Translations under genes and position numbers: made by a program
Source of the DNA: Sedimenticola sp.
GTDB taxonomy: Bacteria > Pseudomonadota > Gammaproteobacteria > Chromatiales > Chromatiaceae
DNA length: 34,103 bases
Direction: 5' to 3'
Assembly (NCBI GenBank): GCA_027068795.1
Contig: JAMOMB010000132.1
Location: 1-34,103 of the forward strand
Part shown: in pieces, positions 6,170 through 33,686 of the stretch
Layout of the letters: each line of letters opens with the position of its first letter
How positions within the stretch are numbered: the stretch's first letter is position 1
Notes under the pieces: model-generated
Seen by the model: only the letters and a program-made list of their open reading frames with translations
Told to the model about the DNA's origin: nothing
The model's database searches: none

Positions 6170-6170
6170 C

Positions 6171-15162: not shown

Positions 15163-15390
15163 TCAATGCACCGTGGGAAGTTTTTTCAGGGGTTCAATCA
15201 GGTGCTCAAGGCCATTGCGCTTTATCTCCAGGGCAAGCTGCATTAACTCCCCCAGTTTTCCTTGCGGAAAGCCTTTGTTGGAAAACCACAGCAAGTAGGG
15301 CTCGGGAAGATCGATGAGCAGGCGGCCCTCGTACTTCCCGAAGGGCATGGGGGTTTTGGCCAGTTTCAGCAGGTCTGTCTTGTCAAACAT
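15163..15390 (-). CDS. DUF3820 family small protein
   Basis: A 75-residue protein with the DUF3820 core MPFGKYEGRLLIDLPEPYLLWFSNKGFPQGKLGELMQLALEIKRNGL. The family has been labelled 'putative quorum-sensing-regulated virulence factor', and its short MxFGKYKG-type motif also occurs beside exonuclease domains; function is unknown. The ATG at 15390 is chosen as the conserved start; an upstream open extension runs into the terminator stem at 15435-15453. It sits downstream of the Idr-like operon but beyond a strong terminator, so it is likely transcribed with the following membrane genes. Confidence 0.8.
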   Translation of the reverse strand: MFDKTDLLKLAKTPMPFGKYEGRLLIDLPEPYLLWFSNKGFPQGKLGELMQLALEIKRNGLEHLIEPLKKLPTVH

Positions 15391-15430
15391 GATCGGAACG
15401 GCAGGTGCTTTCAGGGTTGTACCATAACAG

Positions 15431-15453
15431 AAAAGGGCGGCCAGTGGCCGCCC
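15431..15453 (-). terminator. Intrinsic terminator of the Idr-like operon
   Basis: The inverted repeat GGGCGGCC (15435-15442) / GGCCGCCC (15446-15453) has an 8-bp perfect GC stem and a 3-nt loop. On the minus strand it is followed by TTTTCTGTT. It begins 28 bp after the molybdopterin subunit stop, so it ends that operon. Confidence 0.85.
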
Positions 15454-15480
15454 CTTGTTTCCCCCCAAGCTGGCGGAAAC

Positions 15481-18174
15481 TTACACTACATTGCGCGGTG
15501 CAAAAGACATATGCGTGAACTCATGCTTGTATTTGGATTCCCCGATCTTCTTGACATGAGAAACCCCCATCTTGTAGTTGTAGTTTCCGCTGATCTGGTC
15601 AGGCACCCGGCCTTGCAGGACGTTGGAAGGCTGGCTGGTGTTGATGAAGTAGGAATACATGGTTCCCTTCTTCACATGGGGCGTAACAATGGCTACTGCT
15701 TCCACAGCCGCCTTGTTCAGCTCGATCCAACCGTTCTTCATCAATTCCGCAAAGTTGAAGTCCGACCCGTGCACACCCTTGATGGTCTGGCGGAATACCG
15801 GCACCCGGTCGGTGTACAACAGGATCCTGTCTCCAGATTCGATGCCACGAGCAGCGGCGTCATCAGGATGGATCTCGGTCCAGTTCTCCGGCCAGCGCTG
15901 GGCGATATAGGCGCGACGATCCACATCATCGAAACCGGACTGCCAGATCTCGTTGATACGACCGTTGGTATGCCAGAGTTCATCGCCCTTGGGGCTCATC
16001 CACTCCCAGTAATCGGAGAACAGATCCCAGGGATGCTTCTGCAGGTTGACTTTGCCCGTCTGGGAATTGAAATGGGTCATCTTCTTGTTGACCATATTTG
16101 CACCCTGGGTGCGGCCTTCCATTTCCATCTTTTCCGGGGTCATTTCGGTGTCATGCAATCGTACGCTGCCCAACAGCTCTCCGGTCTTGTAGTTGTAGAA
16201 GGTCGGCCCCTGGATGCCTTCGGTGCCCATTTCACGCAGCTTCTCATGCAGGGTCTTGCCCTCTTTATGGGCCGCCACCTTGATCATGTGATAGGCCTTG
16301 CGGTTGCCGCGACTGAAGCGGGAAGACTCCTCGCATACTTCATTGGAGTTTTTCCAGTCGTAGCCATCAAAGCCCATGCGTTGCGCCAGCTGCGCAACAA
16401 TCCACCAGTCCGGCTTGGCATCGCCCGGCGCGTCATAGAACTTGGAATACAGGCGGATGCGGCGCTCGCCATTGGCCCGCACAAAATCCTCCTCGCCCCA
16501 GGTTGCCGCCGGCAGTACGATATCGGCAAACTTGGAGCCAATGGGATCGCGCAGGTAGATGTCCTGATTGAGCACCACCGTGCCGCCAGAATCCATGCGC
16601 TTTTTCAACGTATCGATAATGGCCTGCTTGTTGGAGGAACGCACCTGGTGGGGATTGTTGGTAACCAGCTCCTCAAACTTGTCGTTCAGCCCCTGGGCTC
16701 CGCACATGGCCTGAATCCAGGTGGTGCCGACCACATGGGCAAAGCGGGTGTAACCGGAATAGAAATAGCGGTCACAGTCCATGGCCTGGCGACGGCGGCC
16801 AGGACGCTTCTGCGGAGACTTGTTGCGAGGGAGGCCGGCGCCACCGGTGCCACCGCGCTGGTGTCCGCCAAAACGACCGACCACCCGCCCAGGACGCCCG
16901 CCTGCGCCACATATGGTGGCCAGGGTACTCACGGCGTTGGTGTTGCCGGTATTGTTGGACCAATAGAAGCCCTTCTCGATACCCAGGGAAGTCTTGGGGC
17001 GGGAGCCGTCCGCCCTGGGTTTGGCCATCCACTCCGCAGCCTGGTAGATCTGCTCTACGGGAATATTGGCGATGCGGGCGGCTTCTTTTGGATCGTATTC
17101 CTTCTGCGCGAGATTCCACTTCTTGTAGTCGTCGAAGCCCTTGGTCTGGAACTTGCCCCAGGTGGTGCGCCATTGCCAGGGCGTATTGCGGGTGCCCTGA
17201 CCGAAACCGGAACTGGACTCCCACTTGTTGTTGACCCATTTCTTGATCCATTCCTTGTCCTCCCAGCCATTTTCAATAATGACCCGGGCAATCGCGCCCA
17301 GAACAGGGACATCCGTGCCTGGATCCAGCTGAATGAACAAGGCATTGCCCCTGCTCTTGGCGTAGGCGACGCCAGCAGTCTCCCGCACGTTCAGCCAGAT
17401 CGTCTTCTGCCCCTGGTCGATGGCCGGTTTCATGAACTGGTTGAAGATCATGGTCTTGGTTTCATACGGATCGGTGCCGCAGATCATCAACACCTCCGCT
17501 TCGCCCCAGTCCTTGTACGCCGGGCCAAAGTTGTCGAAACCCGCATCCCGGAATCCGGGCGTGGATGTCACATCAGCCGGCGTATCATGGAAGGTGAAGT
17601 TGGCGGTATTGATGGCGCCCTTGGAAAACTTGGAAAGGGCATAGGTGTTTTCCACAAACTGATAGGAAAAAGTCTTCATTCCGTAGGCATTGGCCCCGTG
17701 AACCTTCACCGTATGCTTGATCAGCTCGGCCGCAACATCCAGCGCGGTATCCCAGGAAACCGGCTGCAAGGCGCCGTTGATGCGAATCATGGGCGACATG
17801 AGGCGGTCTCTGGTGGGTTTGTTGGGGTTGTAGCACTTCTCGGCAATGGTGCCGCCACGTATGGAGGAATCACCGCCGATATTGACTACCTTGGAGTCCT
17901 TGTCAGGAACGATGATCACATTGTGCGGCTTGCCGTTGTGCATCACCACATTGTGCTGCGTAGGCGCAACCCAGGCCTGCAGGGGGCCTGTGGGGAAGTC
18001 CACGCCAAAGGCGTTCTGCGAGGCCTTGGGACCACCGTCTTTCGCATCCGCCGGCCAGCGGTAGATCTTGTAGCCGCAGGCAACAATGCAGTAGTCACAG
18101 CAGGTCGTCAGCACTTCCGCATTCTTGGGAGGCAGCGGGGTTTTATCTTCTGGAACATAATCGAGTATAGACAT
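15481..18174 (-). CDS. idrA: AioA/IdrA-type molybdopterin oxidoreductase catalytic subunit (iodate reductase-like)
   Basis: An 897-residue Mo-bis-MGD enzyme of the arsenite oxidase branch of the DMSO reductase superfamily. The N-terminal cluster motif is Cys26-x2-Cys29-x3-Cys33 (CDYCIVACGYKIYRW), as in the AioA 3Fe-4S site. Ser104 lies 71 residues after the third Cys, the same distance as in AioA. By recalled alignment, arsenite-site residues His195, Arg419 and His423 correspond to His196, Arg434 and His438 (RFGGHQ), but Glu203 is Ser204. No signal peptide is present, so it likely rides out on the Tat signal of the Rieske partner. The neighbouring pair of di-heme peroxidases is the hallmark of iodate reductase clusters. 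GGGAGGAT precedes the ATG. Alternative: another Aio-like oxyanion enzyme. Confidence 0.8.
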   Translation of the reverse strand: MSILDYVPEDKTPLPPKNAEVLTTCCDYCIVACGYKIYRWPADAKDGGPKASQNAFGVDFPTGPLQAWVAPTQHNVVMHNGKPHNVIIVPDKDSKVVNIGGDSSIRGGTIAEKCYNPNKPTRDRLMSPMIRINGALQPVSWDTALDVAAELIKHTVKVHGANAYGMKTFSYQFVENTYALSKFSKGAINTANFTFHDTPADVTSTPGFRDAGFDNFGPAYKDWGEAEVLMICGTDPYETKTMIFNQFMKPAIDQGQKTIWLNVRETAGVAYAKSRGNALFIQLDPGTDVPVLGAIARVIIENGWEDKEWIKKWVNNKWESSSGFGQGTRNTPWQWRTTWGKFQTKGFDDYKKWNLAQKEYDPKEAARIANIPVEQIYQAAEWMAKPRADGSRPKTSLGIEKGFYWSNNTGNTNAVSTLATICGAGGRPGRVVGRFGGHQRGGTGGAGLPRNKSPQKRPGRRRQAMDCDRYFYSGYTRFAHVVGTTWIQAMCGAQGLNDKFEELVTNNPHQVRSSNKQAIIDTLKKRMDSGGTVVLNQDIYLRDPIGSKFADIVLPAATWGEEDFVRANGERRIRLYSKFYDAPGDAKPDWWIVAQLAQRMGFDGYDWKNSNEVCEESSRFSRGNRKAYHMIKVAAHKEGKTLHEKLREMGTEGIQGPTFYNYKTGELLGSVRLHDTEMTPEKMEMEGRTQGANMVNKKMTHFNSQTGKVNLQKHPWDLFSDYWEWMSPKGDELWHTNGRINEIWQSGFDDVDRRAYIAQRWPENWTEIHPDDAAARGIESGDRILLYTDRVPVFRQTIKGVHGSDFNFAELMKNGWIELNKAAVEAVAIVTPHVKKGTMYSYFINTSQPSNVLQGRVPDQISGNYNYKMGVSHVKKIGESKYKHEFTHMSFAPRNVV

Positions 18175-18187
18175 CTATTTATCCTCC

Positions 18188-18763
18188 CTAGGCATCCATC
18201 AGGTTTTCGTTACGGCCAAACAGCAGCCCCATAATGCCAACGGCATATACATCATCACCATCGACCTCCAGCAATACCTGAGGAATGCTCTGGTAAGCCT
18301 GCCCGGACACGATAATGCCGTGACGGGTCAGGTCATAGGTGGACAAATGCAAGGGGCATTGGCCCAGCACACGATGCTCGCCCACGGCCTGATACTTGCC
18401 ATTCATGGGTCCACCCTGATGCGTACAAAGGTAGCTGAACGCCACCACATCACGTTGGGAACCGACGCCGCCACCGGCCTTGGCGCCTCCCATCTTCACG
18501 ACGAAACATTGGGAATTGGGACCGTCATCAGGATAATTGAAATCCAGTGGCTGGTTGTCTTTGAGCTGACTCAACTGGGCCACTTTCTTGCGCGGATAGC
18601 TGACCACCCGCGCCTTGGCCTGAGCCTCGCCGGGAAAAAGGCTGATGGATATGGTGCTGGCAGCCACCGCGGCCGTGCCTGAATACATCAGGAACTGGCG
18701 GCGATTCAACATGCACCGGCCATGATCAGCCGCTGTTTCATCTTTTTTCTTTATATCGCTCAT
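18188..18763 (-). CDS. idrB: Rieske 2Fe-2S small subunit with Tat signal (AioB/IdrB-like)
   Basis: A 191-residue Rieske protein. The twin-arginine signal LNRRQFLMYSGTAAVAAS (Arg21-Arg22) leads to the cleavage-like site AQA. Cluster ligands are Cys113/His115 in YLCTHQGG and Cys136/His139 in QCPLHLS. It passes electrons between the molybdopterin subunit and periplasmic cytochromes or the membrane. The extra cysteine pair that forms a disulfide beside the cluster in Alcaligenes AioB is absent (Gly118 and Leu138 in those positions), as in some other members. Its ATG overlaps the upstream peroxidase stop (TAATG) with GGAGG 6 bp before, and it lies 13 bp ahead of the catalytic subunit. Confidence 0.88.
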   Translation of the reverse strand: MSDIKKKDETAADHGRCMLNRRQFLMYSGTAAVAASTISISLFPGEAQAKARVVSYPRKKVAQLSQLKDNQPLDFNYPDDGPNSQCFVVKMGGAKAGGGVGSQRDVVAFSYLCTHQGGPMNGKYQAVGEHRVLGQCPLHLSTYDLTRHGIIVSGQAYQSIPQVLLEVDGDDVYAVGIMGLLFGRNENLMDA

Positions 18764-19992
18764 TATTTTGCCTCCTGTGCGGCTTCCAGTTCAGCCTTGG
18801 TGAACAGAGGTGCGTAATCCGGCATCGGTGGTTTTTCCATCAGGATCTCTTCGCCAGAGAAAGCTTCCAGGAACGCTACCAGGTCTTCTTTTTCCTCATC
18901 CGTCAGGCCCAGGGGCTTGATCAACTTGGATTTGTTCTCGGGATAGGCGGTAGTACGGCCTTCTTCGTCAAAGCCGCCGCGGTTGTAAAAATCCACCACC
19001 TCTTCCATGGTGTAGAAAACGCCATTGTGCATGTAGGGCGCGGTATAGGCCGTATAGCGCAACGATGGCGTACGGAACTTGCCTTTGTCCCACTTGTTCT
19101 TGCCACGGAAGTAGAAACCCGGGTCAGCCTTGGTGGTTCGATAGCCTTCTTCGGTCATGCCCTTGGCATAGAGCTCGAAGCGGAAAGTCACCTGGGCCAA
19201 GCCATCTTCTTCCCAACGCTTGTTCGGCGGGACGCCTATATTGTGATAATCCTGATCCGAGGCCAGTTCACCATTGTGGCATTGGATACAGCCCGCCTTG
19301 CCGTTGAACAGCGCCATACCGCGCACCTGCTCTTCACTCAGGGCGCTCTTGTCTCCCAACAGATACTTATCCAAAGGGGTATCTCGCTGCACCAGAGTAC
19401 GCTCGAATGCGGCAATGGCTCTCCAGGCGTCGCCGATCAACGGCCACTCGGTGCCAAACACTTCTTTGAAGCGCTTGCGGTATCCGGGAATCAGCGCCAG
19501 CCGGGATTCCATAATGTCATTTTCACCATTACCTGCTACACCGCCTTTTGCAGCAGAAGGCGCCTGCTTCTCTAGGGAAGGCACTGAACCGGCCCAAAAC
19601 AAACGTCCGTAATATGCACTGTTGATAATTGTCTGGCTGTTGCGCCAGTGAACCGTACCGGGATAGCCGCGGGAGAAATCTTCCGCCCAGGCCCAGCCTT
19701 GATCCGGCTCATGGCAGGTGGAGCAACCCGTGGACGCATCACCGCCAATACGGGGATCAAAAAACAAGATCTTGCCCAGTTCAATTTTGGCCGGCGTCTG
19801 CTTGTTGTCCGGCGGAATCGGCGGCGGGCCCAGGGGAGCCAGCGGCGGCGGGCCGGATTGCGCGGTTCTGGCAGCCATGGCCTTTCCGGATGCGGCGCTT
19901 CCGGATTTTGTTTCCTGCGCCTGGCAAGCTGTCAATACTACGGTCGCAACGGCAGCCGCAACGAGGGTAGGAGCGATCTTCTTTATACTCAT
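18763..19992 (-). CDS. Di-heme cytochrome c peroxidase/MauG-like lipoprotein (IdrP-like)
   Basis: A 409-residue CcpA/MauG-family protein. The N terminus has a lipoprotein signal (VVLTACQ, Cys23) followed by a Pro-rich linker (GPPPLAPLGPPPIPP). Haem motifs are CSTCH (90-94) and CIQCH (235-239), with the usual LGKILFFDPRIGGD, NSQTIINSAYYGRLFWAG and TPSLRYTAYTAPYMHNG blocks. In iodate reductase clusters two such proteins, IdrP1 and IdrP2, are thought to remove hydrogen peroxide made during iodate reduction. This protein and the next are clearly paralogous but diverged. Strong AGGAG precedes the ATG; the gap to the upstream peroxidase gene is 14 bp. Which of P1 or P2 it corresponds to cannot be settled by eye. 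Confidence 0.87.
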   Translation of the reverse strand: MSIKKIAPTLVAAAVATVVLTACQAQETKSGSAASGKAMAARTAQSGPPPLAPLGPPPIPPDNKQTPAKIELGKILFFDPRIGGDASTGCSTCHEPDQGWAWAEDFSRGYPGTVHWRNSQTIINSAYYGRLFWAGSVPSLEKQAPSAAKGGVAGNGENDIMESRLALIPGYRKRFKEVFGTEWPLIGDAWRAIAAFERTLVQRDTPLDKYLLGDKSALSEEQVRGMALFNGKAGCIQCHNGELASDQDYHNIGVPPNKRWEEDGLAQVTFRFELYAKGMTEEGYRTTKADPGFYFRGKNKWDKGKFRTPSLRYTAYTAPYMHNGVFYTMEEVVDFYNRGGFDEEGRTTAYPENKSKLIKPLGLTDEEKEDLVAFLEAFSGEEILMEKPPMPDYAPLFTKAELEAAQEAK

Positions 19993-20006
19993 GACATTCT
20001 CCTCGA

Positions 20007-21113
20007 TTAGTTACGGACCTGCGTCCAGTTTTCGATTACGGGATATTCAGCCGGATAGGGCTGATCCCACACATATTCGGGACCGGTTAGCGGGTCACCG
20101 GAAAGAGATTCAAGAAACGCCACCAAATCCTTCTTTTCATTGGCGCTCAGACCAAGAGGCTTGAGCTTCTTGCTCTTGTTGCTGTCCTTCCCTCCGCCAT
20201 TGTTATAGAACTCGACCACATCGGGCAGGGTCTTGATCATGCCGTTGTGCATATAGGGGGCGCTGTATTTGAGCTCCCGCAATGACGGGGTGATGAACTT
20301 GCCCATATCCTTCTTTTCCAGGGTTATATTGAAATACCCCGGGTCACGCTTCATGTTCCTGTAATTGGGTATGCCCTGGAACATGGCAAACGCCATAAAC
20401 GCCTGATGGTTCATTGGATCCAGGAACACATCAAAATTTTCCGGAACCCCCGTATTATGCGGTTTCTGATCCGTCAGCAAGGGTCCATTGTGACACTGGA
20501 TACAACCTGCCTTGCCCTTGAACAGCTTCATGCCGCGTTTTGCAGAGGCGGACATCGTGCCCTTGTCAAAAGGCGCGCCCGTGGAAGTGAGGGTCTTCAG
20601 GTATTCAGGAATCGCCTTGCGCACGGAGCCGTTGGAAGGTTCACCGTAGCCGGCTTCCTTGAACATCTTGACGTACAAGGGATCCTGCTTCATGCGCTCC
20701 TGCATGATGCGCATGTCCATGTTCATGATGTAGTCTTCCGTGATCATTTCACGGGTCATGTCATTCAGGTTGGTGCCGATACGCCCATCCCAGTTCCAGA
20801 TATTCTTGTGGGCCGTATTCACCAGGGAAGAAGCATTACGAAAATGCCCGTTTCCAGGATAGCCTGGAGACAGCGCCTCTTTGCTGGCATATGCCTTCTC
20901 CGGCACATGGCAGTCGGAGCAGGCAATACCCGCATCCCCCGACAGGCGCTTGTCAAAGAACAGGCGCTTGCCCAGCGCGGCTTTCGCCTTGTCAATTTTT
21001 AACTGCGGTAAGGGTCCGATATCCGGATAGCTGGCGGCTTGCGCCGTCACAACCAATCCGACCCCCAGTGTGGCGGCCAGCAAAGCACGCCCCGTTGAGA
21101 CTCTTACAACCAT
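20007..21113 (-). CDS. Di-heme cytochrome c peroxidase/MauG-like periplasmic protein (IdrP-like), first gene of operon
   Basis: A 368-residue di-heme peroxidase-family protein with a cleavable signal (ALLAATLGVGLVVTAQA, mature end ASYPDIG). Haem motifs are CSDCH (65-69) and CIQCH (204-208); common blocks are LGKRLFFDKRLSGD, NASSLVNTAHKNIWNWDGR and TPSLRELKYSAPYMHNG. Unlike its partner it is a soluble periplasmic protein rather than a lipoprotein. The ATG at 21113 is chosen for its GGAGG (CTGGAGGAAATCCA) and because the signal peptide begins there; an open frame runs 60 codons further upstream without signal-like character. It leads the operon and carries the regulatory region with the FNR box. 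Confidence 0.87.
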   Translation of the reverse strand: MVVRVSTGRALLAATLGVGLVVTAQAASYPDIGPLPQLKIDKAKAALGKRLFFDKRLSGDAGIACSDCHVPEKAYASKEALSPGYPGNGHFRNASSLVNTAHKNIWNWDGRIGTNLNDMTREMITEDYIMNMDMRIMQERMKQDPLYVKMFKEAGYGEPSNGSVRKAIPEYLKTLTSTGAPFDKGTMSASAKRGMKLFKGKAGCIQCHNGPLLTDQKPHNTGVPENFDVFLDPMNHQAFMAFAMFQGIPNYRNMKRDPGYFNITLEKKDMGKFITPSLRELKYSAPYMHNGMIKTLPDVVEFYNNGGGKDSNKSKKLKPLGLSANEKKDLVAFLESLSGDPLTGPEYVWDQPYPAEYPVIENWTQVRN

Positions 21114-21158
21114 TGGATTTCCTCCAGGTCTATTATCAATTTGCCGGTATTGGGAGAC

Positions 21159-21175
21159 TTGGTTGCAACAACCAA
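21159..21175. repeat. Perfect 7-bp inverted repeat in the leader of the Idr-like operon
   Basis: TTGGTTG and CAACCAA flank a CAA spacer, 46 bp before the first start codon. It could be an operator or an RNA hairpin in the 5' leader; no matching regulator is encoded nearby. Confidence 0.45.
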
Positions 21176-21279
21176 TAACACGCGAACAACCGGCAGCCTG
21201 CCCACTACCATGCACAAAGCAGACCAATACGAAGAAGTTCCGCCAAAGCCCGTCAAAACCATGCTTTAGGTCAAACTTG

Positions 21280-21293
21280 TTGATCCAGATCAA
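21280..21293 (-). promoter_or_regulatory. FNR/Anr-type binding site upstream of the Idr-like operon
   Basis: TTGATCCAGATCAA is an exact match to the FNR consensus TTGAT-N4-ATCAA. It is centred about 173 bp before the start codon of the first peroxidase gene, and no plus-strand gene is near. This predicts induction under low oxygen. I do not find a convincing -10 hexamer at the class II spacing, so the exact promoter is unresolved. Confidence 0.7.
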
Positions 21294-21426
21294 AAACCCA
21301 CAGTATTTGTATTGAATAAATCGTTCTATTCACCCTGGGCAGGGCACCAATTTATTCAGGGTAAGCGGTTGCTCTCAAATGTTACGGCTGGGCGCGCAAG
21401 GCAACGGGAAAATTCTGCGCCGGGTG

Positions 21427-21449
21427 AAAAAATAGTCTCAGCAGAGCCT
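21427..21449 (-). terminator. Probable intrinsic terminator after the Sco gene
   Basis: On the minus strand AGGCTC-TGCT-GAGACT forms a 6-bp stem with one mismatch, followed by ATTTTTTC. It lies 22 bp after the Sco stop codon. The stem is weak, so efficiency is uncertain. Confidence 0.45.
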
Positions 21450-21471
21450 ATTGGATTGGTGTTGACAGGCC

Positions 21472-22068
21472 CTAGTTTCCTTCCAACACATAACGAATGG
21501 CCTCGCTGATCACTACCGGTGAGGTGCCATGGGGAAAGATAAAGCGCAGTTCTCCATTCGGCGCAATCAGGTAGGTGGCGGCGGAATGATTGACGGCATA
21601 GCCAAAGGCAGAGCCTTCCAATTCCACTTCATAATACTGGGCGCCATAGCGCGCAGCGGCATCGGCAAGCTCTTTTTCACCGCCGGTCACTCCCATGAAA
21701 TTGGGATGGAAGTAGTCCACATACTCATCCAGCAGTTCCGGTGTATCTCTTTTTGGATCGACGCTGACAAAAACGCCAACCACCTTTTCCAGCTCTTTTT
21801 CATCGAGTTCATTGAACGCCTGGGCCAGGTAGGAAAGCGAGGTCGGGCAAACATCCGGGCATTGGGTATAGCCAAAATACAGCAGCACCACTTTACCCCG
21901 GTAGTCCTTCAGGGCAAAGACGCCTTTGCTGCTGTGCAAAGCAAAATCCCCCCCCGGCGGAGCCTCGGTGACCGCGGGCGTTTCGGCATTGCCCTCAGGC
22001 TGGCCTTGCGCCAGGAGCAAGGGCGTCCACAGCAGCCATAAAACCAGCCATGCAGCTTTATAATTCAT
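21472..22068 (-). CDS. SCO1/SenC/PrrC-family copper chaperone
   Basis: A 198-residue periplasmic Sco protein with signal or anchor (WLVLWLLWTPLLLAQG). The copper site is Cys70-x3-Cys74 in GYTQCPDVCPTSLSYL and His161 in YAVNHSAATYLIAP. Sco proteins deliver copper to, or reduce the CuA site of, haem-copper oxidases and to NosZ. Its place at the end of a cytochrome bd-family operon, which has no classic copper oxidase, is unusual and suggests a copper need for this oxidase or the nearby cupredoxin. I chose the ATG at 22068, where the signal begins, rather than an upstream start at 22188 that would overlap the cytochrome gene. Confidence 0.88.
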   Translation of the reverse strand: MNYKAAWLVLWLLWTPLLLAQGQPEGNAETPAVTEAPPGGDFALHSSKGVFALKDYRGKVVLLYFGYTQCPDVCPTSLSYLAQAFNELDEKELEKVVGVFVSVDPKRDTPELLDEYVDYFHPNFMGVTGGEKELADAAARYGAQYYEVELEGSAFGYAVNHSAATYLIAPNGELRFIFPHGTSPVVISEAIRYVLEGN

Positions 22069-22102
22069 ATCTCTACTCGATGCAGGCGCCTGCAGCCTGC
22101 GT

Positions 22103-24520
22103 TCATGAAACCCGTTGTTTGCGCTGCGACCGCACCAGCAGCACCCCGGCAAGAAACACCAGAAAGCCGATGCCCGCCGGAACGCCATAGATCTTCAGCG
22201 TGTTGGTTTCCGGCGGCAGAATCAACCAGTACCAGGTGGTCAGGGTATGTTTTGCCCCGGCCTCCCCGTTGCTGCCGTCCCAGTTGGCAAAGGATACAGG
22301 AATAAACTGTCCTTCATCGAACAATACGTCGCCATTCGCCGAATATCTGGGGCGCTTCATCAGCACCCGCCAACGCCCTTCCTTCCATTCACCAGTGGCG
22401 CTGAGGCTGACATCCTTCTCCCTGGGCTTGAGCGTATTGTCGGGACCAGCACCGTCCAGCAACATCGCAACAGGTTCGCGCTTCGGCTCTACACTGCCCG
22501 CATTCCAGTACCAGATGGTGGTCTTGTTTTTGGCGTCACCATGGCGATACAACGGCTTTTTCACCATGGGCGCTGACATATAGCCATCTTCGTGGGGGAA
22601 TTGTATGGCGAAGGCATCCGCATGCATCTCCAGATTCTCGTCCTGCAATTCGCTGAAGTATTTGTCTCCCGGCACGCTCATGGTGCGGTCGTTCACCTCC
22701 AGCAGGAAGGCGATTTCTTTTTCATTGTACAAAGCGCGCACGGTAACTGCATCGTTCAATGGCGTAAACAGGCGCTCTTCCTTGATGATGTTGGGAACCA
22801 GATGCAAGGTAACCGCCGGCGCTCCGGACCAGCGTTCATCATCAACAGATGATGGCAACTCCCCTTCCAGCTTCTTGCTGCTGACCACAGGGCCATCTTC
22901 GGGCTGCACCGTGGTTTCCCGCAAGCTGTATACGAAGTTGGCGATATGCCAGCGATCTTCCAGACTTACCGGATCCTCATTGCCTTCTTCCAAAGCACGG
23001 TGCGCGGGCATGGGCGTACCAGGAATGCCAATGGACATGCGGGAATAGATCGCCTTGATGGTTTCATCCCGCTCCTTGTCTGCAGCAGCCAGTGATTGGG
23101 TGGCGCGCCAGGTCCAGGGTTTGGTCAGGTCCCGTGGCCAGATGCGGTTCCCCCAGTCGTCTTCCAGTTTTTTCCCGGAGCGGATATTGCCCCGGCCATC
23201 ATAGCCGTGGCATTCGGAACAGGATTTGCGAAATGCCTCCCTGCCTTTTTCCACCGATTCTCCGGAATATGGGATCTGCCCGGCGAGCGGCTCGACTTCG
23301 GTTATTACCCTAAAATCGGTTTTGGTATAGAAACCATCGTCGTCAAAGGCTTCTTCATCCGCATCCTCGGGCGGCCAGGCCATGGTGATATCAAAACCCT
23401 TGATTACCGGAATCAGGCTGCGGATCTGCTCATCGGTAAGCAAGGCACGCCCCTTGATTCCCCAGCCGGGCATGGCGGTGCCGGGCAGCCCGACCTTTAT
23501 GGTGGCGAACAGATCCTCATCCCGTGGCAGCTGGGTGCCCGGAGAACTCTTATACTTGAACAGCGCCAGGCTGAAATCCCGGGGTTTGGGATACATGAAC
23601 TCCGCCGCCACGCCATCACCGGCGCCGGTCTCGCCATGGCAGACTTCGCAGCGGAGCTTGTACAACTCCTTGCCCATGATGTTTTTGCGGCGGGCCAGCA
23701 CCTCATCTTTCATGCCGGTTACGATCTTGGAAATCTCGGGGTCCCAGATGCGCGGCACCTGCCCGTTGTAGTCGAAGATGAAGTTGATCACATCCCAGAC
23801 ATCTTTTTCTTCCAGCATTTCATGCCATACCGGCATGGCGGAATTCCAGGGCGTACCCTCCACAGGCAGGCCCGGACCGCCGGTAACGATGCGCCAGAAC
23901 AGGAAGGCTTCCTGCAACTGGGGAATAATGGTGGGATCCTGGAAATTGATCGGCTGGGGATTGAAGCCATGGGCATAATGTCCCTTGCCATCCAGCAAAT
24001 CCCCGTGACAATAGAAACAGTTCTTGTAATAGACGTCCCGCCCCGCGATGACGGATTCCTCGTACTTGCTCCAGCCTGCCTCCTTGTCTTTGGCCAATGC
24101 ATCCAGGATCTCATTGCGCACGGGGTTTTCCAGCGTCGCCAGATCATAGGTCTTGTTGTACACCTTGACCGTGGCGGGGGGCGCGGGATGCACCTGACGC
24201 AGCTCCACCGGCGCTTCCAGAGAAGGCCTGACCACACCATAGGCAACATAGGCCACCAGCAAGGGAATAGCGATGAGAAAGAACCAGCGCAGCAAAACCC
24301 TGTCATCATTTCGCAGGGTCGCCAGTATGGGCGCCTTGAATTCATTCCATTTCTCGTCATCAAAGGCGAAATACAAAAGAATGCCGATGATGGTAATGAT
24401 CATGTACTGGATCATCAGGGTTTTCGGCAGCACCGGCGGAAAAGCATTGTCGAAAACCAGCCAGGCCAGTACGGCAGCGATTACGGCCTGCCAGAATGCA
24501 GTAATGCGCAAGCCTTTCAT
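22103..24520 (-). CDS. Membrane tri-heme cytochrome c with C-terminal ethylbenzene-dehydrogenase-gamma-like heme domain
   Basis: An 805-residue multidomain protein. Three membrane helices come first (~10-25, 36-52, 78-97). Three cytochrome c domains follow, with CFYCH (168-172), CEVCH (291-295) and CSECH (434-438). Residues ~560-770 resemble the EB_dh heme-b-binding domain of the gamma subunits of ethylbenzene dehydrogenase and DMSO-reductase-type enzymes (blocks ERLFTPLNDAVTVRALYNEKEIAFLLEVND and HADAFAIQFPHEDGY). One C-terminal helix ends the chain (VPAGIGFLVFLAGVLLV). It probably relays electrons in the periplasm between a soluble donor and the oxidase. It overlaps the di-heme cytochrome gene by 4 bp. 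The EB_dh call is by pattern memory and should be profile-checked. Confidence 0.82.
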   Translation of the reverse strand: MKGLRITAFWQAVIAAVLAWLVFDNAFPPVLPKTLMIQYMIITIIGILLYFAFDDEKWNEFKAPILATLRNDDRVLLRWFFLIAIPLLVAYVAYGVVRPSLEAPVELRQVHPAPPATVKVYNKTYDLATLENPVRNEILDALAKDKEAGWSKYEESVIAGRDVYYKNCFYCHGDLLDGKGHYAHGFNPQPINFQDPTIIPQLQEAFLFWRIVTGGPGLPVEGTPWNSAMPVWHEMLEEKDVWDVINFIFDYNGQVPRIWDPEISKIVTGMKDEVLARRKNIMGKELYKLRCEVCHGETGAGDGVAAEFMYPKPRDFSLALFKYKSSPGTQLPRDEDLFATIKVGLPGTAMPGWGIKGRALLTDEQIRSLIPVIKGFDITMAWPPEDADEEAFDDDGFYTKTDFRVITEVEPLAGQIPYSGESVEKGREAFRKSCSECHGYDGRGNIRSGKKLEDDWGNRIWPRDLTKPWTWRATQSLAAADKERDETIKAIYSRMSIGIPGTPMPAHRALEEGNEDPVSLEDRWHIANFVYSLRETTVQPEDGPVVSSKKLEGELPSSVDDERWSGAPAVTLHLVPNIIKEERLFTPLNDAVTVRALYNEKEIAFLLEVNDRTMSVPGDKYFSELQDENLEMHADAFAIQFPHEDGYMSAPMVKKPLYRHGDAKNKTTIWYWNAGSVEPKREPVAMLLDGAGPDNTLKPREKDVSLSATGEWKEGRWRVLMKRPRYSANGDVLFDEGQFIPVSFANWDGSNGEAGAKHTLTTWYWLILPPETNTLKIYGVPAGIGFLVFLAGVLLVRSQRKQRVS

Positions 24521-28038: not shown

Positions 28039-30444
28039 ATGACAACATACAGAGAAACCGTGGATACCTTGTGCCAGCTCGTTCAAACCGGCGACGAAGC
28101 AGATCGCTGCTATGCGGCCCGCACCCTGGGCCTGCTGCGAGACACGGCATCCATCGAAACCCTGATCGAACACCTCCGGGATGAGGATCTGGACGTTGCC
28201 ATCGACGCCGCAGAAGCACTGGGAAATATCGGCTCGGCGGAAGCCGTGCCCGCGTTGATCGAGTCCCTGGAGAACGACCCCAGCGGCGAAGTATGCACCA
28301 TGGTGGCCGTTGCCCTGGGCAAGATCGGCAGCACTGAGGCCATCGATCCTTTGCTGAAAATCTGCCTGGAGCGCCCACAGGACATGGAATGGAACGATGA
28401 CTGGGATACCTGGTGGGATGTGCAGAAGGCCGCCGTCCACGCGCTGGGAAAGCTGGGGGCGGAAACCGCCGTGGACAGTTTGGCGGCCCTCATCGATGAT
28501 GAATGCCAGCAAGACATGGAGCCGGATATTCTCAATGCGCTGATCCGCATGGGTGGCAGCGGCGAAGCCAAGGTCATCAAACGGCTGCAAAACCCGGACA
28601 GCGCTTCCATCCATCGCCGCAGGGCGGCTCATGCGCTGGCGCGGTCATCTTCCGTCGAGGCCACCAAGGCATTGGGGCGCGCACTGACCGATCCCGCCGC
28701 GGATGTACGCGCAGAAGCCGCCTTGTCCCTTGCATCGCAGAACGCCGTTTCCTATTTAAGCGCCCTGACCTTGCTGTTGCGCGATCCGGACAACCAGGTA
28801 CGCCAGGCCGCGCTCAAAGCCGTGACCCGGCTGGCGCAGAACAGCGACAATGCACCCAATGTGGAAGAAGCCTTCCAGGGCATGCTGGCCGACCCCGACC
28901 CGGAGGTGCGCGCCATCCTGTATTCCATGCTGCTGCCCGTCGTTCCCGACAATCCGTTATCGGAAGAAAATTTCCAGCGGGTGCTCGAGCGCATCTCCGA
29001 CCCGTCCGCCGAAGCGGCCGCCGCCGCCTGCGCCCTGCTCGGCGCCAACAGAAACACGGCGGCCATTTCACCCCTGCTGGAAATCGTCAGCGACAGCAGC
29101 GCCCACCCCATGGTGCGAAAAGAGGCTGCTACCGCCATCGGCAGCCTGGGACGCATCGACGTAGACGTACTCAGCACCCTGGAGAACACCATCACGGACG
29201 AGCAGCAGGTAGTGCGCCTGGCGGCCCTGGAGGCCTTGATGGAACTGGAAAAAACCGGCCTGATCACACCACCGGACGACGAAGAAGCACCACTGCCACG
29301 CCCCCTGGATCTAATCATGGGCGCGTTGAACGGAGAAATCACCATTCCGCAGCCGCCGCCTCCCGCCCCGGTAGAAGTGACCCTGGATACCGGTATCGAC
29401 AAGGGAGAAGCGCCACAGGCCGATAGTGAAAACCCGCCCGAAGAAACCGATACAATCGCAGAGACCGCAGAATCCGATCTCGATCTTCCGCAAACACCCG
29501 CACAAATCGTTGCCGAAGGCGAGGTGGCGCCCGCCATGTCCACCCTGGACGCCATTCACATGGCGAATGTGGAAACCATGCTGGCCACGCCGCACGCCCC
29601 GGAAGAGATGGCCGATGAAACCACCATGGAATACCTGGAAATCGTGGCGCACAACAAGGAACTCATGCGGCGCATGCGCTCCAATCGGAGAATCGACGCC
29701 CAGCAGGACATACGCCGCCTGGCGGCGCATGTCCTGGCGGAAACCAACGAAGAGGAAGCCCTGAAAACCCTGACACAGGCGCTAAACGACGACGCCGCCC
29801 CCGTGCGCCGGGAGGCGGCGGACTCCATCGGCCTCATGGCCAAACGCAATCCGCAGCTTGCCGGCCTCACCGACGCCGTTGGCACCCTGATTACCCAACT
29901 GGCCATTGGCGACCTGGATCAAAAAATCACCAGCGCCAGGGCATTGAGCTACATTGGCCACCGCGCAGCCCTGGTTCCTCTGCTGGAGGCGCTCAAGGCC
30001 CCGGAGTTCACCTTGCGCACCCAGGCCATCGACGCCCTGGCGCGCCTCTCCCTCAACAGCCGGGATCCCGCTGAAGCAGATCACATGGTCGTACGCGATG
30101 TGCCGCCGTTGAGCGTCGCCCGCCGGCTCATGGAATGCCTGGAGGACAATGAAATGGCGGTTCGTGTCGCTGCCGCCAGAGGGCTGGCAAGAATACTCAA
30201 ACCCTTGCGGGAAGAATCCTTTACCCGCAAGGCGGTCGAAAAAATTGTCGATGGCGTTACCATCGGCACGGGAGAAGAAGCCAGGCTGATTGGCCGCGCA
30301 CTGCGCGAATTCGACACCGATCTTGCGAACAGCATATTGCTGGCAAACCTCAAACAGGCCGACGACAGCGTCAAGCGCAGCGTATACATTGAAATGATAG
30401 AAGAATTGCTGACTGTACAAGATCACTCTGAGCAGGCAGCCTGA
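28039..30444 (+). CDS. HEAT-repeat protein, cytoplasmic scaffold
   Basis: An 801-residue protein built of HEAT/PBS-lyase-like repeats such as CYAARTLGLLRDTASIETLIEHLRDEDLDVAIDAAEALGNIGS. About nine or more run through the N-terminal ~415 residues and about five more through ~545-790. A Pro/Glu/Asp-rich linker (roughly residues 415-520, genomic 29280-29600) separates the two blocks. No signal peptide or membrane helix is seen, so it is cytoplasmic and likely a protein-binding scaffold. PBS-lyase-type HEAT repeats also occur in bilin lyases and in cofactor-handling proteins. It leads the plus-strand operon behind a sigma-54-like promoter. The ribosome site is poor, and no earlier start is better. 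Confidence 0.88.
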   Translation: MTTYRETVDTLCQLVQTGDEADRCYAARTLGLLRDTASIETLIEHLRDEDLDVAIDAAEALGNIGSAEAVPALIESLENDPSGEVCTMVAVALGKIGSTEAIDPLLKICLERPQDMEWNDDWDTWWDVQKAAVHALGKLGAETAVDSLAALIDDECQQDMEPDILNALIRMGGSGEAKVIKRLQNPDSASIHRRRAAHALARSSSVEATKALGRALTDPAADVRAEAALSLASQNAVSYLSALTLLLRDPDNQVRQAALKAVTRLAQNSDNAPNVEEAFQGMLADPDPEVRAILYSMLLPVVPDNPLSEENFQRVLERISDPSAEAAAAACALLGANRNTAAISPLLEIVSDSSAHPMVRKEAATAIGSLGRIDVDVLSTLENTITDEQQVVRLAALEALMELEKTGLITPPDDEEAPLPRPLDLIMGALNGEITIPQPPPPAPVEVTLDTGIDKGEAPQADSENPPEETDTIAETAESDLDLPQTPAQIVAEGEVAPAMSTLDAIHMANVETMLATPHAPEEMADETTMEYLEIVAHNKELMRRMRSNRRIDAQQDIRRLAAHVLAETNEEEALKTLTQALNDDAAPVRREAADSIGLMAKRNPQLAGLTDAVGTLITQLAIGDLDQKITSARALSYIGHRAALVPLLEALKAPEFTLRTQAIDALARLSLNSRDPAEADHMVVRDVPPLSVARRLMECLEDNEMAVRVAAARGLARILKPLREESFTRKAVEKIVDGVTIGTGEEARLIGRALREFDTDLANSILLANLKQADDSVKRSVYIEMIEELLTVQDHSEQAA

Positions 30445-30467: not shown

Positions 30468-31208
30468 ATGAAAAAAGCATTCATCACCCTCAGCATCGCC
30501 GGCATATGCGCCCTGCCTCTGGCGGCCCAATCAGCCTACAAGGAGATCAGCGTCTCCAACGGCGGCACCATTACCGGCAGCGTGAAATTCGCGGGCAAGG
30601 ATCAGCCGCCAAAGACCTATACCATCTCCAAGGACAATGACGTATGCGGCACCGGGGTGCGTAAAATCGATTTTGTACGGGTGGAAAACGGACACCTGCT
30701 GGATACTGTGGTCTACCTGGAGAAAGTCAAGGAGGGCAAGCCCTTCCCGGCCGATGTGGGCGACGCCACCATTGATCAGAAGGGCTGTGAGTTCAAGCCC
30801 TTCCTGCAGGTCATGAAGAACAAGGCCACTCTCGCCGCGGTAAATGACGATCCCATTCTGCATAACATTCACACCTACGAGTTGATTCGCGGTGACGCCA
30901 AAGGCCCGAAAAAGACCCTCACCAACGTCAGCCAGCCCAAACCCGGCGTGGTGAAATCCACCATCAAGGTCAGAAAAGGCCCCGCCATGAAAGTGGAGTG
31001 CGACGCCCACGACTTCATGCACGGATTCGTCTTCATCGCCAAGAACCCGTACTTTGCAAGAGTGGCGGATGATGGCAGTTTCACCATCGAGGACGTTCCT
31101 CCCGGCAAATACACGATCAAGGCCTGGCATGGCATGCTGAAAAACCAGAAGGCAAAAGTGACCGTGGACGCCGGCGGTACGGCAACCGTTGACTTCACTT
31201 TCAAGTAA
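30468..31208 (+). CDS. Periplasmic cupredoxin-like protein with carboxypeptidase-regulatory-type C-terminus
   Basis: A 246-residue exported protein (signal MKKAFITLSIAGICALPLAAQSA). The central part resembles a cupredoxin. His132/His135 occur in LHNIHTYE, and the later loop has Cys178-x2-His181-x2-Met184 in VECDAHDFMHGFVFI, which fits type 1 copper ligands. The C-terminal ~55 residues (DDGSFTIEDVPPGKYTIKAWHGMLKNQKAKVTVDAGGTATVDFTF) form a beta-sandwich of the carboxypeptidase-regulatory type. A GGAG lies just upstream; the gap to the HEAT gene is 23 bp. It may shuttle electrons or copper with the Sco chaperone and cytochromes of the divergent operon; this is inference. Confidence 0.82.
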   Translation: MKKAFITLSIAGICALPLAAQSAYKEISVSNGGTITGSVKFAGKDQPPKTYTISKDNDVCGTGVRKIDFVRVENGHLLDTVVYLEKVKEGKPFPADVGDATIDQKGCEFKPFLQVMKNKATLAAVNDDPILHNIHTYELIRGDAKGPKKTLTNVSQPKPGVVKSTIKVRKGPAMKVECDAHDFMHGFVFIAKNPYFARVADDGSFTIEDVPPGKYTIKAWHGMLKNQKAKVTVDAGGTATVDFTFK

Positions 31209-31345: not shown

Positions 31346-31382
31346 TCCGCACACCGTCAACCTGATGTTGATGGCGTGCGGA
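31346..31382 (+). other. Long intra-operon hairpin before the universal stress gene
   Basis: Arms 31346-31361 and 31367-31382 pair over 16 positions: TCCGCAC with GTGCGGA, CC with GG and TCAAC with GTTGA, plus one A-C mismatch and one G-T pair. The loop is CTGAT. No T-run follows, so it is more likely an mRNA processing or stability element than a terminator. Confidence 0.6.
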
Positions 31383-31460
31383 CAAGACACATACCATCCC
31401 CCAGCCGTGAATCGTCCGATGCGCCAGTCACGGCTGACTCTCTATTCCGCAGGCCCATGC

Positions 31461-33686
31461 ATGAATGCGCAAGCACAAGACAGACCCGAAACGGCCCCTG
31501 AACTTCCCGGCTACTCCTCCGTCCTGCTGGCGGTTGATTCCTCGGATCACGCCAACCGGGGGATCCTGGAAGCCATCGCCCTGGCAGGGCATTATCAAGC
31601 GCGACTCACGGCGACTCATGTATACGCCGCGAAGCTCCATGACGCGCGCTTCCGCCAAATGGAAGGCGGGTTGCCGGAACAATTCCGTGAAGAACAGGAG
31701 CTGGAACGGCAGCGGGACGTGCATGACGATCTCATCAGCCGGGGACTGTCCATCATCACCGACTCCTATCTGGATCAGGTGGAAACAGCCGCCGCGGACA
31801 AGCTCCAGGTGCAACGTCGCTCCCTGGAAGGGAAAAACTACCGCGAACTGGCAAATGAGGCCAACAGTGGCAACTACGACCTGCTGGTCATGGGATCCCT
31901 TGGCCTGGGCGCCGTCAAGGGCAGCCGCCTGGGCACGGTCTGCCAGCGCGTATCCCGGCGCAGCGCCATTGACACCCTCATCATCAAAGACCCCGACCGC
32001 CGGCTTGATGAAGGCCCCATCGTAGTCGGCGTGGATGGTTCGGCAAAGTCCTACGGCGGCCTGCTCACCGCTTTGAGCCTGGCGAGGATCTGGAATGCGC
32101 AAATCAAGGTGGTATCCGCTTTCGACCCCTATTATCACTACGTCGCCTTCAACCGCATCGCCGGAGTATTGTCCGAAGAGGCCGGCAAGGTATTCAAGTT
32201 CCAGGAGCAGGAAAAGCTCCACGAGGAAATCATCGACTCCGGCCTGGCGAAGATCTACCAGGGACATTTGTCCGTGGCGCAGTCCATTGCCGCAGATCAT
32301 GGCATGGAAGTGGAGACGGTACTGCTGGACGGCAAACCCCATGAGGTCATCAACCGCTATCTGCAGGAAACCAGGCCATCCCTGCTCCTACTTGGAACCA
32401 CCGGCATCCACGCCGATCCGGAACTGGACATTGGCGGCAATACGGAATACCTGCTCAACGACGCTCCCTGCGCCGTGCTGCTCAGCCAGCGGGAATACCA
32501 GCCCCAGGTGGACAGACTGGCCTCTGTGAGCACATCCTGGAGCCGCGAAGCCGAAGCCCGCATGGAACGGGTGCCTTCCTTTGTACGCAGCATGGCGCGC
32601 ATGGCCATCCTGCGCTATGCCCAAGAGAAAGGCCACACCGTCATTACCGCAAGCATCGTCGAGGAAGCCACGGCGCAACTCATGCCCGGCCATGCCGAGC
32701 AAGCCATGGGCGAAATCGTGGAAGCCTATGACCGGGGCGACCTCAAACGCAAGCCGGAAACCAGAGTGATGCGCTGGAGCGAAGCGGCCACCGCCCTGCT
32801 ACTCACCGTCAAGGATCTGAGCTTGCGCGGCAACCTGAGCATGCGGGCGGAAAAGAAGGCCCGCACCGCAGGCAGCCAAACTGTCGAGGCTGAACACATA
32901 CAGGCCTTTCTCGACAAAAGCATTCCCACCGCCCCCTTTGCGCCAGGAACGGAAGCCGCCCTGCCCGGCAAGCGGAACGCTACCGACCTTCAGACCGGGA
33001 AGAAAGAGGCCGCCCTGCAATGGCAGGCCGCAGCCCTTGCCCGGCTCATGCGCGTTCCGGAAGGATTCATGCGCGACAGTTCCCGGCAACGCATCGAAAA
33101 CTACGCAAGAAAACGGGGGCTGACAGAAATCAGTCTGAAAACCACAGAAGCAGGCCTGACCGAAGCACGCAAGGCCATGGAAGCACAGATGACCACTGCT
33201 TCCGCCACGGAAAAACCTGCGCCATCCGACGAGGAAGCCCGCTGCCCTTTTTCCGCAATGAAAAGCATCGCAGCAGATTCAAAACCTGCATCCACCGCAG
33301 AAATCCAATGGGATAAAGAAGCGGAAGCCCTGCTGAATGGCATACCGTCCGGTTTTTGCCGGGACATGACCCGCAAGGCGGCCCAGGCAATCGCCGCCCG
33401 GAACGACATGAGCATCATCAAACCCGCATTCGTACAGCAGGTATTGCAAACTTTTCAATCCGGTTCAGAGCAACATAGGGAAACCATGCCTTGGGAAACC
33501 GCCGCCAGGGAACGCATCGACAAAGCACCGGATATGGTGCGCGGCATGCTGATCAAGGAAATCGAAGCCTGGAGCCGGCAGGAGGGCCTGCAACAGGTGA
33601 GCGAAGAAGCCGTAAATGCAGTAAAAGCCATCTGGAGGGAACACGGCGCCTTCCACCTCACGCCAAGCAATCCCCGCAATGGATAA
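31461..33686 (+). CDS. Double universal stress protein fused to five PCP_red-like repeats
   Basis: A 741-residue protein from the ATG at 31461. Two UspA domains lie at ~17-178 (SSVLLAVDSSDHANRG... DLLVMGSLGLGAVKGSRLGTV) and ~186-342 (IVVGVDGSAKSYGG... LLLLGTTGIHA). Five copies of a ~48-residue module follow at ~360, 439, 521, 617 and 678, each starting with Trp and a pattern W-x3-A-x4-L-x2-[IV]-P-x2-[FV]-x-R; they match the PCP_red domain found at the C terminus of the protochlorophyllide reductase ChlB subunit. Copy 2 is the most degenerate. An ATG at 31365 would extend the frame but lies in the hairpin loop and has no ribosome site. Function unknown; possible sensor or scaffold for haem-like cofactors. 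Confidence 0.8.
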   Translation: MNAQAQDRPETAPELPGYSSVLLAVDSSDHANRGILEAIALAGHYQARLTATHVYAAKLHDARFRQMEGGLPEQFREEQELERQRDVHDDLISRGLSIITDSYLDQVETAAADKLQVQRRSLEGKNYRELANEANSGNYDLLVMGSLGLGAVKGSRLGTVCQRVSRRSAIDTLIIKDPDRRLDEGPIVVGVDGSAKSYGGLLTALSLARIWNAQIKVVSAFDPYYHYVAFNRIAGVLSEEAGKVFKFQEQEKLHEEIIDSGLAKIYQGHLSVAQSIAADHGMEVETVLLDGKPHEVINRYLQETRPSLLLLGTTGIHADPELDIGGNTEYLLNDAPCAVLLSQREYQPQVDRLASVSTSWSREAEARMERVPSFVRSMARMAILRYAQEKGHTVITASIVEEATAQLMPGHAEQAMGEIVEAYDRGDLKRKPETRVMRWSEAATALLLTVKDLSLRGNLSMRAEKKARTAGSQTVEAEHIQAFLDKSIPTAPFAPGTEAALPGKRNATDLQTGKKEAALQWQAAALARLMRVPEGFMRDSSRQRIENYARKRGLTEISLKTTEAGLTEARKAMEAQMTTASATEKPAPSDEEARCPFSAMKSIAADSKPASTAEIQWDKEAEALLNGIPSGFCRDMTRKAAQAIAARNDMSIIKPAFVQQVLQTFQSGSEQHRETMPWETAARERIDKAPDMVRGMLIKEIEAWSRQEGLQQVSEEAVNAVKAIWREHGAFHLTPSNPRNG

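Follow-up and report, generated by a model that had tools for sequence, protein, structure and literature searches.

The window analysed here, i.e., the whole stretch of 34,103 nucleotides (positions 1 to 34,103 of contig JAMOMB010000132.1, assembly GCA_027068795.1), is a contig from a Sedimenticola sp. genome of 2.29 Mb that is 84% complete. It carries a four-gene operon of the idrABP1P2 (iodate reductase, Idr) type, read on the minus strand in the order idrP2-idrP1-idrB-idrA. A sequence-only reading had located four tightly spaced genes between positions 15431 and 21113; this span holds all four idr genes but misses the upstream half of what appears to be a single system, a neighbouring module of cytochrome, cytochrome bd-like and candidate copper-protein genes. 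The features of the operon are the following.

15481..18174, minus strand: idrA-like catalytic subunit of 897 amino acids (aa), of the molybdenum-bis(pyranopterin guanine dinucleotide) (Mo-bisPGD)/[3Fe-4S] type, marine-type clade, with Ser204 at the AioA Glu203 position
18188..18763, minus strand: idrB-like Rieske subunit, 191 aa, with the twin-arginine translocation (Tat) motif NRRQFL and CxHx20CxxH
18763..19992, minus strand: idrP1-like di-heme MauG/CCP protein, 409 aa, with a lipobox-like LTAC
20007..21113, minus strand: idrP2-like di-heme MauG/CCP protein, 368 aa, with an N-terminus that resembles a signal peptide by eye
15432..15456, minus strand: terminator-like hairpin behind idrA, with an 11-pair stem and a T-rich tail

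Within the operon, 14 bp separate idrP2 from idrP1, idrP1 and the Rieske gene overlap by 1 bp, and 13 bp lie between the Rieske gene and idrA. Domain searches identify Rieske_3 and Molybdopterin in the 897-aa protein, Rieske in the 191-aa protein, and CCP_MauG in both P1 and P2. The window IdrA contains the motif CX2CX3CX70S, and P1 and P2 each contain two CxxCH motifs, a number kept in every full-length copy among loci L017-L098 (62/62 for P1 and 68/68 for P2). Together with the gene order and the tree described below, these motifs back the idrABP1P2-type identity that the sequence-only reading had proposed, and its further claims of a Tat-exported Rieske subunit, two di-heme peroxidases, one of them a lipoprotein, and a terminator directly behind the catalytic gene agree with the motifs and the hairpin at 15456-15432. 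The spacing of the Rieske motif is x20 in the window and the gammaproteobacterial loci and x18 in L096-L098 and Azonexus; the window IdrB does not fit the CXHX18CX2H reported for strain DN11, which we read as variation in a spacing that sets no defining limit. Just past the idrA terminator lies a small gene of the QSregVF_b family (15163-15468), found in the same position in the sister species (L020; 85%).

Relatives were sought among genome contigs, of which at least 472 stretches encode them, and the best 80 of these gave 79 loci (L020-L098) whose IdrA proteins are 67-96% identical to that of the window. They include Sedimenticola, Candidatus Thiodiazotropha, tubeworm endosymbionts, Thiomargarita, Vibrio, Moritella, and Endozoicomonas. 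P2 lies upstream of idrA on the same strand in all 66 of these loci that have at least 3 kb of upstream sequence, and the order P2-P1-B-A is constant across the flanked loci; the operon is therefore not a chance grouping. The metagenome-assembled genome (MAG) of Sedimenticola sp. 4281-140 (L020) has an IdrA 95% identical to that of the window in a matching neighbourhood, and a MAG labelled S. thiotaurini (HyVt-443, L026; 85%) has the same bd-cytochrome-P2-P1-B-A run. That the peroxidase genes come first was correctly noted in the sequence-only reading, but this order is not unusual: the peroxidase genes also come first in the idr cluster of an Azonexus plasmid, and idrP2,P1,B,A is the normal idr order (PMC10989891). 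Sedimenticola thiotaurini, Vibrio, and Moritella have already been named as idr carriers, the first as a putative iodate reducer (PMC8692401). Given the standard order and this earlier listing of S. thiotaurini, the four-gene cluster adds one more member to an established kind. Sedimenticola hydrogenitrophicus SB48 has two idr operons ~7 kb apart on one contig (L030:7039-12676 and 19558-22675, the second truncated where the locus ends), strain SN1189 likewise has two IdrA contigs (L028 and L031), and an idr operon at 80% identity occurs in a MAG labelled Candidatus Polarisedimenticolaceae (Acidobacteriota; L033), reflecting either transfer or a binning error.

The IdrA/AioA tree comprised 107 rows, including two identical pairs, and excluded the short L032 and L040; it was a quick LG+G4 tree that gave long-branch warnings. 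Azonexus (Rhodocyclales; L018) served as a stand-in for the IdrA proteins of strains SCT, IR-12, and DN11. The 100 IdrA rows split from the 7 AioA-like rows with a support of 100 in the Shimodaira-Hasegawa-like approximate likelihood ratio test (SH-aLRT). Within IdrA, 7 rows form a canonical group (Azonexus and Thiothrix plasmids, genome G158, and others; SH-aLRT 100), and 92 rows form a group that is mainly marine (SH-aLRT 99); the latter contains the window IdrA and is a sister clade of the group with Azonexus. The window IdrA is 49% identical to the Azonexus protein and, among the matches listed, ~26-29% identical to annotated plasmid AioA. A phylogeny was among the checks proposed in the sequence-only reading, and in it the 897-aa protein groups with IdrA, falling neither inside the arsenite oxidase clade nor outside both IdrA and AioA.

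The tree groups also differ in one pocket residue, for which we assume the AioA numbering Glu203, His196, Arg434, and His438. The position aligned with Glu203 is Glu in all 7 AioA-like rows, Asp in all 7 canonical rows and in genome G378, and Ser in nearly all marine-type rows (76/79 gammaproteobacterial rows, the other 3 being Ala; 11/11 alpha-type rows; 2/2 rows of family f112), so that Glu203 is replaced in 100/100 IdrA rows. The aligned His196, Arg434, and His438 are common to all rows, the AioA-like ones included. Tree placement and pocket residue led us to reject an arsenite oxidase, and descent and gene company identify the window protein as Idr-type but outside the Rhodocyclales-type group. 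Family f223, whose class differs from that of the window, has IdrA in 12/248 genomes, 10 at 65-67% and 2 at 49-52% identity to the window; it is probably alphaproteobacterial, since its marine-type rows group with the named alphaproteobacteria L096-L098. The IdrA of G378 (L126) has no resolved position at the IdrA base; this deep IdrA-like protein is accompanied by IdrB, the 18 kb retrieved contain no match to P1 or P2, and the protein possibly resembles the unknown clade between Aio and Idr in PMC8692401.

Upstream of the operon lie the genes of the neighbouring module, as follows.

21472..22068, minus strand: SCO1/SenC copper chaperone-like protein, 198 aa, with CxxxC (start codon chosen in the analysis)
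22103..24520, minus strand: triheme c-type cytochrome with an EB_dh/type II dimethyl sulfoxide (DMSO)-reductase gamma-like domain, 805 aa, with predicted membrane helices
24517..25350, minus strand: di-heme c-type cytochrome, 277 aa
25347..27251, minus strand: membrane protein resembling cytochrome bd subunit I, 634 aa, no GRQPW-type motif
28039..30444, plus strand: HEAT-repeat protein, 801 aa, encoded divergently to the bd-like gene
30468..31208, plus strand: candidate exported cupredoxin, 246 aa, with HNxH...CxxHxxM and a C-terminal carboxypeptidase-regulatory-like domain
31365..33686, plus strand: protein with two universal-stress and four PCP_red (protochlorophyllide-reductase C-terminal) stretches, 773 aa, which recurs beside the bd module

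The bd-like and di-heme genes, as well as the di-heme and triheme genes, overlap by 4 bp each, and gaps of 34 bp and 358 bp separate the triheme gene from the SCO gene and the SCO gene from idrP2. In profile comparisons, solved structures of cytochrome bd subunit I align to the N-terminal half of the bd-like protein (best E 9.6e-15) and not to its C-terminal half. H106 and E193 are equivalent to E. coli His19 and Glu107, the Glu99 equivalent is Tyr in 25/25 rows of these alignments, and H272 falls, depending on the alignment, at or beside what we take to be the heme b558 ligand position. Neither the GRQPW-type quinol motif, presumably characteristic of quinol-oxidising cytochrome bd, nor, in domain searches, an adjoining CydB-like gene was recognised, and the protein does not qualify as a quinol-oxidising CydAB. 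The triheme protein has three CxxCH motifs in 24/24 full-length copies, its C-terminal domain scores 1.2e-20 against the gamma subunits of type II DMSO reductases, short of that family's cut-off, and its AlphaFold model is of moderate quality (mean predicted local distance difference test, pLDDT, 58). Of the di-heme cytochrome, 17/22 copies have two CxxCH motifs and 5/22 have three. The HNxH and CxxHxxM motifs of the candidate cupredoxin, which would match an amicyanin-like type 1 copper ligand set, are kept in 15/15 rows, with H132, H135, C178, H181, and M184 invariant. Among distant homologues, that of L247 has SCO as a neighbour and cbb3 oxidase genes close by, and that of L246 is flanked by a c-type cytochrome on either side. 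The G+C content of the idr, SCO, cytochrome, bd-like, and cupredoxin-like genes ranges from 0.53 to 0.58, that of the universal-stress gene is 0.60, and that of the HEAT gene is 0.615, compared with 0.589 in the sequence to their left; with no clear break, a recent island recognisable by base composition was rejected. Farther to the left, the minus strand of 4152-7183 has clustered genes for HlyD-like and outer-membrane efflux proteins and for two thioredoxin-like proteins.

The module recurs beside idr in other loci. Upstream sequence of 9.2 kb or more is available for 48 named loci (from the best 79): the triheme gene lies upstream in 25 and the bd-like gene is linked in 22, a sensor kinase lies within 9 kb upstream in 9, none has both triheme gene and kinase, and 14 have neither. 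In genome G780 (L151), all ten genes stand in ~17 kb with one extra open reading frame (ORF), in the order bd-cytochrome-triheme-P2-P1-B-A-HEAT-cupredoxin-universal stress. In G158, which has a canonical-type IdrA (L124/L125), ~18 kb hold A, B, P1, P2, a cupredoxin-like gene, the universal-stress gene, a split triheme gene, the cytochrome, and the bd-like gene, and no HEAT match was found in this locus. Such gene sets are rearranged yet retained in G158, G260, G359, and G838. In L127, L128, and L153 a closer copy is accompanied by a second, more distant bd-like/cytochrome set (~41-48% identity in the bd-like part), which follows idrA and the HEAT gene on their downstream side.

Across genomes, the bd-like protein tends to occur where IdrA does. 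Among 369 gammaproteobacterial genomes, IdrA (counted at identities of at least 50%) was found in 15, the bd-like protein in 16, and both in 11 (Fisher 1.5e-14); the corresponding numbers are 12, 6, and 5 among the 248 f223 genomes (Fisher 6e-7) and 9, 11, and 8 among 55 relatives (Fisher 1.2e-6), the sole IdrA-only genome of the last set (G027) being 40% complete. The IdrA counts exclude AioA-like matches in G032, G144, and G279 (32-35% identity). Scoring in the class and family searches was limited to the top 2 or 3 candidates of each genome, so that these counts may be low, and the Fisher tests take related genomes as independent. Two less clear cases, neither with an rpoB row, are G126, whose contig ends inside the bd-like gene, and G015, whose contig ends ~560 bp behind SCO in a non-P2 ORF; the Fisher tables treat both as bd-only. 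The cupredoxin-like protein occurs in exactly the same 11/55 relatives as the bd-like protein (identity 32% in G047 and 55% in G026), and IdrA, the bd-like protein, and the cupredoxin-like protein occur in the same 6 genomes of a 15-genome genus. Shared ancestry was considered with an rpoB tree covering 84 genomes, some of them chosen by hand, for which frames were picked by BLAST. Its rows came from 41 of 46 hand-chosen genomes (17 IdrA or bd-like carriers and 29 comparison genomes) and from 43 of 45 relatives with an rpoB match, G041 and G049 being excluded for split rpoB genes. On its supported branches there are 11 independent pairs, in which the bd-like protein follows IdrA in 9-10 and opposes it in 0-1 (median p 0.004). 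In four of the 11 joint carriers (G186, G235, G246, and G250) the two genes lie on different contigs, so that linkage alone does not account for every case; the module of G250 is >130 kb from either end of a 305-kb contig.

We consider that the cytochrome genes beside idr are probably part of the same system, and we favour, at a probability of about 0.55, an Idr-type molybdoenzyme that reduces iodate or a related oxyanion, is wired to the neighbouring membrane module, and has peroxidases as clean-up. The four genes would make a periplasmic enzyme composed of IdrA (Mo-bisPGD and [3Fe-4S]), the Rieske protein IdrB, and two di-heme peroxidases; its substrate, we infer, is most likely iodate or a closely related oxyanion, reduced at low oxygen. 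The bd-like heme protein, di-heme cytochrome c, membrane-anchored triheme/heme-b cytochrome, and copper-protein candidate would carry electrons between the respiratory chain and IdrB, and the peroxidases would clear H2O2 or other by-product oxidants. The module would thus replace the c551/bc1 route proposed for Denitromonas, where bc1 and c551 are invoked and a dedicated quinone oxidoreductase is noted as absent (PMC8692401). Gene content, gene order, clade, and co-occurrence are observed here, and the substrate, the direction of electron flow, and the part played by the copper protein are inferred. On the present predictions the host remains a candidate iodate reducer. More tentatively, and with the odds rather against it, marine-type Idr may be a separate redox system running from the Ser-pocket molybdoenzyme through the copper protein and triheme/heme-b cytochrome to the bd-like protein.

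Several observations weigh against the favoured assignment. The window pocket residue is Ser where the canonical type has Asp, and no iodate reduction by a marine-clade member was found here or in the literature searched; all iodate respirers confirmed experimentally by 2022 fell in one small clade of ten genomes (PMC8801600). Three marine alphaproteobacteria tested in 2024 may or may not belong to the clade of the window protein. The published mass of the R. azorensis IdrA, 99.4 kDa, is closer to three canonical-type alphaproteobacterial proteins (99.17-99.41) than to ten marine-type ones (99.72-100.26), a weak hint against the marine clade having been tested. The association with the module has exceptions as well: among the 369 genomes the bd-like protein occurs without IdrA in 5 and IdrA without the bd-like protein in 4, and the bd-like protein is absent from 7 of the 12 IdrA carriers among the 248. 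The split between module and two-component loci is not absolute, as kinase-like matches lie 3-4 kb downstream in the bd loci L023, L037, and L041, and in G158, outside the 48 loci, a pair that looks like a regulator and a kinase by start sequences alone follows the bd-like gene. The AlphaFold model of the bd-like protein is unusable (mean pLDDT 42), and the cupredoxin is a candidate by motif, profile searches for a copper fold returning Copper-bind at E 0.058 in 1/15 rows and no PDB copper protein. Joint transfer of linked genes could account for much of the co-occurrence, and IdrA exceeds the cut-off of the NCBIfam arsenite_ox_L model (397 versus 359 bits).

This last result is what speaks for a misread arsenite oxidase, an explanation that is largely refuted and now highly improbable, given the low identity to plasmid AioA, the fully supported separation in the tree, the peroxidase pair in the operon, and the loss of Glu203 throughout IdrA. 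An oxidase of another kind is a better rival, in which electrons would pass from a reduced substrate through IdrA, IdrB, and cytochromes to a bd-like oxygen reductase, as AioBA does with arsenite. The enzyme family, the lost acidic pocket residue, the adjoining putative oxygen reductase, and the many loci in lineages of sulfur oxidisers are all compatible with it; we nevertheless judge it improbable, and the oxidative direction less likely than reduction, as two peroxidases accompany IdrA in all 66 flanked loci and Idr has functioned reductively wherever it was tested (PMC8692401, PMC10149662, PMC11445184).

The strongest competitor, a serious one despite being less probable than the favoured explanation, makes the bd-like module a cytochrome c-fed oxygen reductase (OR-N-like) that stands beside Idr and is not a donor to IdrAB. 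It would lower oxygen, burn oxygen or peroxide from hypoiodite, or switch electrons between oxygen and iodate. This accords with the CydA-like N-terminal half, in which the H19 and E107 equivalents are kept and the GRQPW-type motif is missing, with cytochrome c as the likely donor for OR-N type CydA (PMC10839748), with a relative in G026 near apparent heme/oxidase assembly genes (start sequences judged by eye, no search having been made on them), and with the suggested oxygen sensitivity of R. azorensis Idr (PMC11445184). Set against these are the invariant Tyr at the E99 equivalent, the fact that no activity is known, and the tendency of the module to occupy the place that two-component and c551 genes have at other loci, an arrangement that suits an electron partner equally well. 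A linked island that moves as a unit, with no joint function of module and operon, is an unlikely explanation: the two share one contig, within ~18 kb, in 7/11 joint carriers of the 369-genome set, and idr genes are mobile (PMC8692401), but the four carriers with separate contigs and the four rearranged but retained sets argue otherwise.

Reyes-Umana et al. described the idr cluster as lacking a quinone oxidoreductase and having poorly conserved surroundings. The gene set reported here recurs and tracks idrA both in Gammaproteobacteria and in one family outside that class, providing concrete candidates for the missing electron route, and may reveal the electron path to an enzyme type that helps control marine iodine. 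The link between idr and cytochrome bd appears unreported, as no paper joining them was found in a literature search that misses most subscription journals. If the more tentative proposal of a separate marine-type system is true, a dedicated membrane complex would couple iodine/oxyanion redox to the quinol branch or the oxygen branch of sulfur bacteria, animal symbionts included, and the substrate or the direction of this Idr may not be that of the tested iodate reductases. Since the marine and Rhodocyclales types of IdrA are set apart by one pocket residue, equating every idrA with an iodate reductase in ocean surveys may be unsafe before a marine-type protein has been tested.

Compared with known systems, the window Idr belongs to the same enzyme family as the arsenite oxidase AioBA and shares its iron-sulfur and Rieske subunits and the aligned pocket His, Arg, and His; AioBA lacks peroxidases, has Glu203, and falls in a separate clade, and the reverse holds here. 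The C-terminal domain of the triheme protein resembles the gamma subunit of type II DMSO reductases (EbdC/ClrC-like), but forms one polypeptide with three c-type heme motifs and membrane helices, and the adjoining molybdoenzyme is Aio-family, unlike in those systems. The bd-like protein shares with OR-N type CydA, which likely takes electrons from cytochrome c (PMC10839748), a CydA-like N-terminal half, adjoining c-type cytochrome genes, and the lack of a visible quinol site; it differs in its linkage to Idr. The putative idr cluster of Sedimenticola thiotaurini (PMC8692401) carries the same genus name, and no bd-module link to it was found in the literature searched. With the idrABP1P2 clusters of Pseudomonas sp. 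SCT, Denitromonas sp. IR-12, and Azoarcus sp. DN11, the window shares the four genes, the P2-P1-B-A order, the IdrA iron-sulfur motif, the Tat Rieske subunit, and the two di-heme peroxidases. It differs from that type in an IdrA with 49% identity to the Azonexus stand-in, a Rieske spacing of x20 (x18 in DN11), a pocket Ser in place of Asp, and its neighbours, which are bd, cytochrome, and copper-protein genes where some members of the SCT/IR-12/DN11 clade have a two-component system, c551, and moaA.

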